A stretch of DNA of 64,000 nt from Longimicrobiales bacterium (lineage in GTDB: Bacteria > Gemmatimonadota > Gemmatimonadetes > Longimicrobiales > Gaopeijiaceae), in the NCBI GenBank assembly GCA_028823235.1, contig JAPKBW010000014.1, positions 1 through 64,000 of the forward strand. The letters run 5' to 3'. The notes below the pieces were generated by a model. It was given only the letters and a program-made list of their open reading frames with translations, was not told the origin of the DNA and did not search any database. Numbering within the stretch: the stretch's first letter is position 1; the number at the start of each line of letters is the position of its first letter. A program made the translations under genes and the position numbers. Positions 16,206 to 20,180 of the stretch are shown here, piece after piece.

Positions 16206-16775
16206 TCAGCGCCGGGAGATCGGGATCCGCAGAGTCGCTCGTTCCCAGGCAAAGACGAGCGATCCGGCCGAGCCGGCGCCCTCGAAGCGGAAGGTAAGTG
16301 TCTCGACGAGCCGCCCAGGATCTGTCACCACTACTTCAAAGCTCCCGATGTCTGCGCTGCGCACATCAGGGCTGAGCGGGATCCCCCATCGGTTCGTATT
16401 CCCGTTTACTACGATGGTCCACTGACCCGTCTCCGCAATGGCGTACAGAGAGTAGGACCCAGGCTCAACGTCGATTCCCCCGAACGTCGCAGGGAAAGGT
16501 AGATGCAACGTCGTGGGCTCGTTCGCGCCGAACCGCCATGGCGAACCGAGGGCGTCATCGCCGCCGATCATAGTGCGTCCCCGAAGTGAAGGGCGACCAT
16601 AACATAGTTTGGCGGCATCACCGCCCAGATCGATCATGACGGAGTCGGGGGGACTCGGCCGCTCGGCCAAGGCATCGGGTGCACCCCGAAACTGACACTG
16701 CGTCTGGGCCGCTCCGACCGCGGGTGCGGCGGCCATGATGGCCACCGCCATCCAGAAGGTCCAACGGTCTTTCAT
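16206..16775 (-). CDS. DUF2911 secreted protein
   Basis: A 189-residue exported protein of the DUF2911 family, whose role is unknown. ATG 16775 is preceded by GAGG and begins a signal peptide that ends near VGAAQT; the open frame extends a little upstream without adding signal features. The family pattern is visible: KLCYGRPSLRGRTMIGG, then SPWRFGANEPTTLH, then a beta-rich part with GIDVEPGSYSLYAI and NRWGIPLS. These proteins are small beta-sandwich-like periplasmic proteins frequent in Bacteroidota and Gemmatimonadota. The gene is followed on the same strand by nothing, and preceded by the broken CsgG/LpoB-like lipoprotein 10 bases away. Confidence 0.85.
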   Translation of the reverse strand: MKDRWTFWMAVAIMAAAPAVGAAQTQCQFRGAPDALAERPSPPDSVMIDLGGDAAKLCYGRPSLRGRTMIGGDDALGSPWRFGANEPTTLHLPFPATFGGIDVEPGSYSLYAIAETGQWTIVVNGNTNRWGIPLSPDVRSADIGSFEVVVTDPGRLVETLTFRFEGAGSAGSLVFAWERATLRIPISRR

Positions 16776-16785
16776 GGTTTCTGCC

Positions 16786-17625
16786 TCAACTCTCTGCCAG
16801 TGTGCCACCCAGTTTCAAGCGCGCCGCCCGGGCGAGGAGCGTCACCGCCTCATGGAAGGCCGGTTCTGCAGCCGTGGCTTGATAGCCCCTTCGAGTGCCT
16901 TCCCAGTTCCATCGTTCGTCTGCCGCAAGCCCTGCGAGGAAGTTGGCCAGCGATGCTTGGGATACACCTGACGCCCCTTCCGCGTTCGCTGGCCCTGACT
17001 CGGGCGGGTCCACCTAGGCCGGTAGGCGGCCTTCATCATCGAGCATCGCGATGGCCTTGTCGACGATCGAGCGTGCCAGCGTCACTACATCGGGTTCGGA
17101 TGGGAGCATCGCCAGCGTCGATTGTACCATTTCGCCACTGAGGACTTCCATCTGGCGGATTTCCACTGATGTGCGGATAGCCGAAAGCGGAATCCATACC
17201 GCCTGGATCGAAAAGGCAGGCGTCACACTGACGCCAGTAGACGGTTGACCTAGCCGGCGCAGTTTACCACTTCGCTCGGCATCGGCAATGACCAGGAAGC
17301 GTCGACGTTTGACCTATTTCATTTCACGACGACGGAGCAGGCCGGCCGCCACCAGCTCGTTTACTCCGATGGAGGAGGAGATGCCTCCTCCGGGCCACAC
17401 ATAGAGCCCGCGGAAGTCGATGTCACCGACACTGATGCGGGTCGCTCCGTTCAGGGGAGTGGGTCGGTCCACCCGGAGCGCTCGCCGCTCAGCCTCGGCG
17501 GCAACACTCGATCCGGCCGTTGTCGCACGGCCCCCACACGCTGCGAGGCCGAACAGCGATACCATTAGCGCACGGGTGGTGCGCCCGTGACTGTGGGGTA
17601 CGAATCTCCTGGATGTTCGGATCAT
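16786..17625 (-). pseudogene. CsgG/LpoB-like lipoprotein with two in-frame TAG codons
   Basis: One reading frame runs from ATG 17625 down to 16786, cut by TAG at 17316-17314 and TAG at 17016-17014. Part 1 starts with a signal peptide and lipobox (FGLAAC), then TRISVGDIDFRGLYVWPGGG and VNELVAAGLLRRREMK. Part 2, directly after the first stop, continues KRRRFLVIADAERSGKLRR and 80 more codons free of stops. Part 3 continues after the second stop with ADERWNWEGTRRGYQ and LARAARLKLGG. The pattern of a global strand, a GLLRRREMK-x-x-ERRRF-like segment and a tail is what CsgG/LpoB/GNA1162-type lipoproteins show, and the three parts read as a single protein of about 280 residues. The family label is moderate; the continuity of frame is what the sequence shows directly. 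Confidence 0.65.
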
Positions 17626-17748
17626 GACCACTGAGATCTGGGTCGAGTGTCTGGCGGTCGACCGGTGCTGAGGGTGACGAAGCTGACTGATTCTCCCAAA
17701 GTAGTGCGTGCCGCGCGCTGACCTCCACCTTCCTGCAAGAACGCCACC

Positions 17749-18168
17749 GTGACCGAAGCCCTAGAAGAATTTCGATTCACCCACTCAGTTCCGGTGCGTT
17801 TTCGCGACATCGACATCGGTGGGCATGCTCATCATGCTGACGCCCTCATCTACTTCGAAGAGGCACGATGGGCTTACTGGATAGAGGTTGTGGGCCAAGG
17901 GCTCAATGAGCTGGATTACGTCCTTGCCGAGTGTCGCGTTCGTTGGCACGCTCGGGTGCTGTGGCCACAGGAGTTGGCCGTCAGCGTAAGAGTCGTCCGG
18001 GTGGGCCGAAAGCACTTTGAGATGGCGTATGAGGTCCGCTCTGCCGAAGGTGAAAAGCTGCAGAGTGGGGCGACGGTCCAAGTGATGTTCGACTACGACA
18101 CCGGCAAGTCGAAGGCGATGCCCGACGAGCTGAAGTCAATTCTGGAGTCGTTCGACGGCCCGTTCTAG
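17749..18168 (+). CDS. Acyl-CoA thioesterase (4HBT hotdog family)
   Basis: A 139-residue single-hotdog protein of the 4-hydroxybenzoyl-CoA thioesterase family, which hydrolyses acyl-CoA thioesters in the cytoplasm. The characteristic segment VRFRDIDIGGHAHHADALIYFEEAR carries the catalytic Asp (DID) and the His/His-Ala variant of the usual GHVNNA motif. The rest has the expected strand pattern with ELAVSVRVVRVGRKHFEM. The start is GTG at 17749, with only a weak ribosome site. It is divergent from the broken lipoprotein gene. The natural substrate is unknown; short aromatic or branched acyl-CoAs are typical for the family. Confidence 0.87.
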   Translation: MTEALEEFRFTHSVPVRFRDIDIGGHAHHADALIYFEEARWAYWIEVVGQGLNELDYVLAECRVRWHARVLWPQELAVSVRVVRVGRKHFEMAYEVRSAEGEKLQSGATVQVMFDYDTGKSKAMPDELKSILESFDGPF

Positions 18169-18437: not shown

Positions 18438-20180
18438 ATGCTTGGACGGCTCAAGCTGACACTCATGATCACTGCTGCGGCTGTGATCTTCGCGCCTGCA
18501 GCGCAGGTTGCGGCACAGGACGGTGGGCGCTTTAAAGTGCTGATTCCGTACTTCACCCCGCTCGAGGACGCGAAGGACAAATTCGGCAAGGAAGCGTCGA
18601 AGGAGCTTCGCGAACTTATGGGTAGCATGCCGACCCACGTGGCCCTGTCGGAGCGAGACATTAAGGATGAGGTCAAGAACTTCGATATGAAGATCCAGGA
18701 TCTCGACTGCATTCGGACGCGACAGCTCGCGTCGCAGATCGATGTGCCGGTCGTGATTTGTGCCAGCTACACCGAGCAGGCGGACAAGAGTTGGGTCATC
18801 TCCGCCGAAGTATGGGACATCGCGGGGTCCGAGTCGTTCCCGATCGAGCCGTTCCCGATTGGTGAGAAGGATGAGGAAGGCGCGGCAGTACACATTTATG
18901 ACGCGTTCGAGCGCTACTCGACGACGGTCCGTTCAGCGGCCATCTGTAACGATTACTACGCCAGTCAGCAGTGGGAGAACGCTCTCCGCAACTGCGACGA
19001 GTCGCTGGGCCTTAATCCGAACTCGATGGGTACTCGCTACCTCCGCGGGCTCGTTCTCTATGAAATGGAGAACCACACGGATGCGCTGATCGAGTTCGAG
19101 ACGGTTATCGCGGCCAACCCGTACCATGAAGACGCGCTGCAGCGGGCGGGCTACATCGCTGCGCTCACGGACCAGGACACAAAGGCCCGTGAGTACTACT
19201 CGCGTTACCTTGAGATCAACCCGGGCAACGCTGCGATCCGCATGCGGATCGCGTATGAGCTGGCCCAGGCCGGTGACCCGGTTGGTGCCATGGAGTTCAT
19301 TCAGGTCGGACTGGACGTCGATTCCGAGAACGTCGATCTGCACGAGCAGTACGGTGGGTTCGCGTTCAGCGCCGCGCTGGAAATTCAGCAGGAAGCGGCG
19401 GTAGGTGCTGAGAACGGCGGTGATGCCGTAGCCCCTGAGGCGGTCGGTTACTACCGCGAGGCGATCGCTTCGTACGAAAAGGTCTTTGAGGCGAAGGGCG
19501 CCGAGACTCCGGTGGGCCATCTGTCCAACGTCATTTCGGCATACATCCAACTCGAAGATCTCGAATCTGCGATCTCACTTGGTGAGCGGGTGCTTCAGAC
19601 CCACGGTGACGAAGATCGCCTGTGGCTTCTTTATGCCGATGCGCTCCAGCGCAATGAGAGACTCGATGACGCGATCACCGCGCTCGACCGAGTCATGGAA
19701 ATCAATCCGGACCACCCGAATGCTGCGCTCCGTCAGGGTAATTGGCTGATCCAGGCCGGTCGCGTGAGTGACGCAGTGGACGTGCTGAGTGTTGCTGCGG
19801 AGAACAACCCACAGCAGGCGCAGCAGGCGGCCCAGATGGTATTCGCCGAAGCCTACCAGAACGGTGTGGAGAAAGACGACTACATGTACGCCGCGTCAGC
19901 GGTGTCCGACGCAAAGCGTATTCCGAACCTCTCTGAGACCATGATGAACCAGCTGAACTTCTGGCATGGTTACAGCCTCTATCAGCGGGCCTTGGCCGAG
20001 CAGGAGCCGCAGACGCTGCCATCTGCGAATCTGTCGTTGCCAAAGTTCTACCAGGCGCTCGAGTTTCTGAACCTCGCCGGTGACTATCCCGAGTCTGTGG
20101 GCGTGAACCTGCAGCAGCTGATCGACAACGCAGGGACGTACATCGAAATCCAGGACGCGATCATCAAGCGCGGTCAGTAG
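18438..20180 (+). CDS. Secreted tetratricopeptide-repeat protein with TolB/CsgG-like N-terminal domain
   Basis: A 580-residue exported protein of unknown role. ATG 18438 follows GGGAGATAAGG; the signal peptide ends at QVAAQ. Residues 30-165 form an alpha/beta domain starting FKVLIPYFTPLE and containing VPVVICASYTEQAD and the WVISAEVWDI strand, similar in outline to TolB-N/CsgG-like lipoprotein domains. From about residue 170 onward come tandem TPR units, for example GLNPNSMGTRYLRGLVLYEME, AANPYHEDALQRAGYIA and EINPDHPNAALRQGNWLI. TPR arrays bind other proteins, so it is likely a periplasmic scaffold. It is a single-gene unit, with a palindromic regulator site upstream and a strong terminator 36 bases after its stop. 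Confidence 0.85.
   Translation: MLGRLKLTLMITAAAVIFAPAAQVAAQDGGRFKVLIPYFTPLEDAKDKFGKEASKELRELMGSMPTHVALSERDIKDEVKNFDMKIQDLDCIRTRQLASQIDVPVVICASYTEQADKSWVISAEVWDIAGSESFPIEPFPIGEKDEEGAAVHIYDAFERYSTTVRSAAICNDYYASQQWENALRNCDESLGLNPNSMGTRYLRGLVLYEMENHTDALIEFETVIAANPYHEDALQRAGYIAALTDQDTKAREYYSRYLEINPGNAAIRMRIAYELAQAGDPVGAMEFIQVGLDVDSENVDLHEQYGGFAFSAALEIQQEAAVGAENGGDAVAPEAVGYYREAIASYEKVFEAKGAETPVGHLSNVISAYIQLEDLESAISLGERVLQTHGDEDRLWLLYADALQRNERLDDAITALDRVMEINPDHPNAALRQGNWLIQAGRVSDAVDVLSVAAENNPQQAQQAAQMVFAEAYQNGVEKDDYMYAASAVSDAKRIPNLSETMMNQLNFWHGYSLYQRALAEQEPQTLPSANLSLPKFYQALEFLNLAGDYPESVGVNLQQLIDNAGTYIEIQDAIIKRGQ

Follow-up and report, generated by a model that had tools for sequence, protein, structure and literature searches.

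The reading frame at positions 16,786 to 17,625 of a 64,000-nucleotide stretch of contig JAPKBW010000014.1 from a Longimicrobiales bacterium (hereafter the window) encodes what appears to be a lipoprotein and carries two in-frame TAG codons, which raises the question of whether the gene is dead or is still translated to its end. The initial annotation offered both answers, recent death by two substitutions or readthrough of TAG. Our analysis favours the first, while readthrough received no positive support: the frame is very probably a recently inactivated pseudogene of a secreted, probably lipid-anchored protein, in which a divergent CsgG-type domain was followed by one TPR-like unit.

Two TAG codons in an otherwise open reading frame

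The minus-strand frame from 17625 to 16786 comprises 280 codons in a single frame with a terminal TGA at 16788-16786, and the two TAGs divide it into sense segments of 103, 99 and 75 codons (Table 1). The frame and TAG coordinates of the initial annotation proved exact. Relatives align across both TAGs with the frame unchanged, and the earlier statement that about 840 bases contain no indel holds for the window copy, in which none was found. The remaining five frames of the same interval contain 6 to 11 stops each. Because two or fewer stops were obtained in only 13 of 2000 single-base shuffles (the mean of the shuffles is 8.1), the lipoprotein frame is open beyond chance, and a chance open frame is rejected by these shuffles together with the homologues of the joined reading. 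The third-position GC contents of the three segments (0.69, 0.62 and 0.64) are still near those of the window genes.

Among the 15 aligned relatives, the codon at the column of the first TAG is TTC in 14 and TTT in one, and at the column of the second TAG all 14 relatives with letters there have TGG. A fragment in another genome of the genus (G003) has no Trp at the place of the second TAG. Because TTC and TTT are at least two changes away from TAG and TGG is one change away, at least three substitutions were needed for both stops, and the two substitutions proposed initially are too few. The first stop is inside the predicted CsgG-like domain and the second is between this domain and the predicted TPR-like unit.

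Table 1. Features of the interrupted lipoprotein frame and its neighbours (positions in the window)
Feature	Position	Strand	Remark
Interrupted lipoprotein reading frame	17625..16786	minus	GTG start six bases further out in the ORF list, at 17631
First in-frame TAG	17316-17314	minus	Codon 104; column is Phe in 15/15 aligned relatives
Second in-frame TAG	17016-17014	minus	Codon 204; column is Trp in 14/14 relatives with letters there
Putative signal peptide (approximate) and lipobox-like LAAC	17530..17583	minus	Assigned by eye
Third segment, single TPR-like unit and GGTLAES end	16786..17013	minus	Part best conserved with relatives
DUF2911 gene	16206..16775	minus	Just downstream, same strand; stable neighbour in the genus
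4HBT thioesterase gene	17749..18168	plus	Divergent neighbour, used as place marker; terminates in TAG

Homologues of the joined reading

When 14 genus genomes, among them the one that contains the window, were searched for the joined reading, six gave matches, one of which is the window copy itself with its two TAGs. The copies in G007 and G011 are uninterrupted, with identities to the joined reading of 44% (residues 10-279) and 43% (residues 24-278), respectively. The copy in G008 is in two pieces, both at contig ends, G012 has a C-terminal match, and the match in G003 contains one TAG. The G007 copy lies on JAQBXY010000005.1, from a Gemmatimonadetes metagenome-assembled genome; a contig scan with the G007 protein found one relative, which was that same contig, and the corresponding scan with the joined reading found none.

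The profile of the genus copies matched 20 of 121 genomes of the family, belonging to 10 of 40 genera. In-frame stops were present in 2 of the 22 match rows, namely the window copy (two TAGs) and G003 (one TAG). The match in G094 is weak, and this protein is a CsgG by Pfam (E 6.3e-15). The match in G101, a genome of another genus, covers only profile positions 48-122; at this place (L057, 1495-1736) the frame ends after the initial portion of the CsgG-like domain, so that this is probably a broken copy as well. The alignment of relatives was made from the 22 match rows without G003, G101, G094 and the second row of G110, with G008 as two rows. For the column counts, G012 was also left out and the two G008 rows were merged, which gave 16 sequences (the window copy and 15 others).

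Comparison of stop positions in related genomes, proposed initially as a check, revealed that none of the aligned relatives ends at either TAG, and the possibility of separate adjacent genes is rejected on this ground. A literature search by title found nothing on this lipoprotein family.

Relationship to CsgG-type proteins

The initial annotation had suggested a CsgG/LpoB-type fold and an HMM search of the joined reading for CsgG, LpoB and GNA1162. The Pfam scan of the joined reading gave no family, and the cut-off for CsgG (PF03783) was not reached. Lack of a family match had been named as evidence against a single interrupted gene; it is found for Pfam alone and is overruled by the full-length homologues. 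In a Pfam scan of six family members, CsgG was not among the matches and LpoB and GNA1162 were not matched either. None of the Pfam and NCBIfam models scanned names the lipoprotein family, and a search of the PDB by sequence profile returned nothing convincing (best E 0.17).

However, an hhalign comparison of the profile of the intact copies with eight CsgG-TPR proteins from the bacterial family of the window genome gave a probability of 98.1 (E 1e-13), and the N-terminal and C-terminal parts gave 95.5 and 94.3 separately. The controls stayed far lower (0.1 for the reversed profile, 0.0 to 0.4 for 20 column shuffles, 0.1 to 0.2 for four neighbour families). The eight proteins came from 15 candidate loci, the others of which gave no frame or a wrong length, and one of the eight (L058) is itself a weak match of the lipoprotein family profile. 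Thus, profile-profile comparison makes the CsgG-type guess likely to be correct in the sense of distant homology, but it was borne out neither by Pfam or NCBIfam nor by a usable structure model, as the AlphaFold2 model built from two sequences had too low a confidence (mean pLDDT 40.9).

The CsgG-TPR proteins (PF03783 plus TPR; for example L058, L121 and L122) have the same order, a CsgG-like domain and then one TPR unit, and a 'VER-R' stretch is common to both groups in the alignment. The identity to them is about 14%, and unlike them the lipoprotein family has conserved motifs of its own, FVERRRF and PxWxDP. LpoB (PF13036) and GNA1162 are likewise small envelope lipoproteins, and LpoB has a CsgG-like fold; L058 shows a weak LpoB match (E 0.0029), below the cut-off. 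As for the lipoprotein assignment itself, LAAC preceded by a short run of hydrophobic residues was recognized by eye in the window copy, with a Cys in a similar setting in the relatives, so that the protein was probably secreted and lipid-anchored. The role in the envelope that was proposed initially is one that we infer for the family. The locus points to a fast-evolving lipoprotein family of CsgG-TPR type that the scanned models leave unnamed.

Constraint on the window copy

Among 32 columns constant in the other 15 sequences, the window copy departs at seven (the two stops and five more), while the other 15 sequences have 0 to 4 departures each at such columns (17/493 in all). The excess is significant (P-value = 2.7e-4, Fisher test), also without the two stops (P-value = 0.006). 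Two of the five additional changes, D110E and E115K, flank the first TAG. Of the 61 columns conserved to 85%, 14 are changed in the window copy and 12 in G059, an uninterrupted but divergent and long-branched copy. Because G059 is nearly equal there, the excess of the window copy is clear at the constant columns only.

In a maximum-likelihood codon model of the 16 sequences, the window branch had an omega of 0.062, compared with 0.095 for the rest of the tree (2dlnL 0.22), a test with little power because synonymous sites are saturated. The changes at the constant columns would fit relaxed constraint, yet omega is not raised, which says only that most of the window branch was constrained and that there was no long neutral phase. 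When dN/dS was estimated for each of the 16 tips, the short tips G069 and G070 had high omega (2dlnL 8.50 and 3.78) and the tip G049 low omega (2dlnL 6.33), and because of these tips the branch test is not clean. The protein branch of the window copy is only slightly longer than that of the intact G011 (0.76 vs 0.69). Like the lack of indels, the unraised omega, the third-position GC and the departures of G059, this counts against the pseudogene reading.

A simple calculation puts the number of random substitutions expected to produce two stops in a frame of this composition at about 75 (0.089 per site), which calls for some luck or for decay that began very recently. Because neither an indel nor a long neutral phase was seen, the death of the gene is best called recent.

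Fate of the locus within the genus

The place of the gene, marked by the thioesterase gene, was found in 12 of the 14 genus genomes; no marker was found in G006 and G013 (63 and 64% complete). Further neighbours by Pfam scan are GDPD and a TPR protein. Residues 1-187 of this TPR protein, which is encoded at 18438-20180 beside the thioesterase gene, are without a Pfam match below E 0.1, and the profile of the protein could not be aligned with that of the CsgG-TPR set (hhalign 0.2).

Among the 12 placed genomes, three have an intact copy, namely G007, G011 and, provided that its two contig-end pieces form one gene, G008. Of the others, one has the two TAGs, one an in-frame deletion, one is degenerate, two hold relics and four contain nothing detectable. 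In G012, most of the CsgG-like domain is gone by an apparent in-frame deletion. The TPR-like unit at the C-terminus is fused there to the signal region in an open frame (L006, 1354-1815), which may be either dead or a shortened working form. G003 is degenerate, retaining the C-terminal part only with its own TAG at a different site, and G009 and G010 have short relics at the locus. In G001, G002, G004 and G005, no match was found between the matches of the thioesterase and DUF2911, which are 224 to 303 bases apart.

In a tree built from three neighbour proteins, the genomes that lack an intact copy occupy four positions. The window genome holds one and G012 another, G005 groups with G010 (support 98), and G003 groups with G001, G002, G004 and G009 (support 100). 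Because the deep nodes of this tree are weak (support 20 to 57), the estimate of how many separate losses occurred draws mainly on the differing lesions.

Probable inactivation by nonsense substitution

Taken as a recent pseudogene, the window copy would have been inactivated by nonsense substitutions at two constant positions, with at least three base changes. Translation would stop at codon 104, inside the CsgG-like domain, and would yield only an N-terminal stub. We infer that such a stub is useless and that the loss is recent. The gene appears to be dispensable in the genus, where it seems to have been lost several times, and this is the likely reason why the strain survives. Bacterial nonsense pseudogenes likewise have in-frame stops at constant positions with intact copies in relatives, and likewise show mixed lesions and clean loss at one place; the window copy differs in having no indel yet and is otherwise ordinary. 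The case looks like ordinary gene loss in progress rather than a change of the genetic code. It is a small and clean example of gene death by nonsense substitution, and within one genus a single place shows the gene intact, with two stops, with an in-frame deletion, as relics and not at all, as stages of its loss.

The best surviving alternative, itself improbable, is that a consensus error or mixed strains in the draft assembly made one or both stops. The assembly consists of 90 contigs with an estimated contamination of 1.91, the species is known here from this one assembly, and the second stop is a single substitution from the codon of the relatives. However, an error would have to account for two separate stops, the first of which differs from the codon of the relatives by two or more changes, as well as for the two nearby replacements D110E and E115K, also at constant columns, and broken copies occur elsewhere in the genus too.

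It is very unlikely that the shortened protein still works, or that the third segment is re-initiated as a separate TPR-like peptide. A GTG directly follows the second TAG, conservation in the protein is highest in the C-terminal unit, and the open frame of G012 joins the signal region to this unit although most of the CsgG-like domain is missing. Against this, the first stop falls within the CsgG-like domain, no aligned relative is terminated at either place, and the third segment of the window copy has no signal peptide.

TAG as a stop codon in this genome

TAG terminates 13 of 49 ORFs in the window (a set chosen greedily by length with a minimum of 120 aa, not curated genes), including both plus-strand neighbours, the thioesterase gene and the TPR protein gene. 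The earlier argument that TAG ends other genes and has not been generally reassigned is thereby borne out. Release factor 1 is present (469 bits, cut-off 423), and the anticodon cta does not occur among the 36 tRNA genes detected in the genome. As tRNAs for Trp, Phe and Asp are missing from this set, it is incomplete, and a missing suppressor is not proof. General reassignment of TAG is ruled out by these three observations together. All seven other matches in the window genome (two DUF2911, one thioesterase, one CsgG and three release-factor matches) are without internal stop.

Readthrough restricted to the lipoprotein gene, by a suppressor tRNA or a leaky context, would give the full-length protein and would agree with the frame free of indels, the unraised omega on the window branch and the aromatic residue that relatives have at both TAGs. 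We consider it highly doubtful, since release factor 1, the lack of a cta anticodon among the 36 tRNA genes and the TAG-terminated neighbours are joined by the lack of a TAG at either column in any relative, the five further changes at constant columns and the loss across the genus. Least probable of all is the special case in which both TAGs are usefully translated as an aromatic residue (at the constant Phe and Trp) in a frame under selection while TAG is otherwise a stop. Readthrough would be a real surprise if true, and nothing here calls for such a reading in place of the recent pseudogene.

In addition, a selenocysteine tRNA was detected in the window genome (Rfam RF01852, 70.9 bits, gathering score 47; L105, 176-268, minus strand; G000:C4, 45475-45566), and because of its presence TGA may be recoded in some genes.
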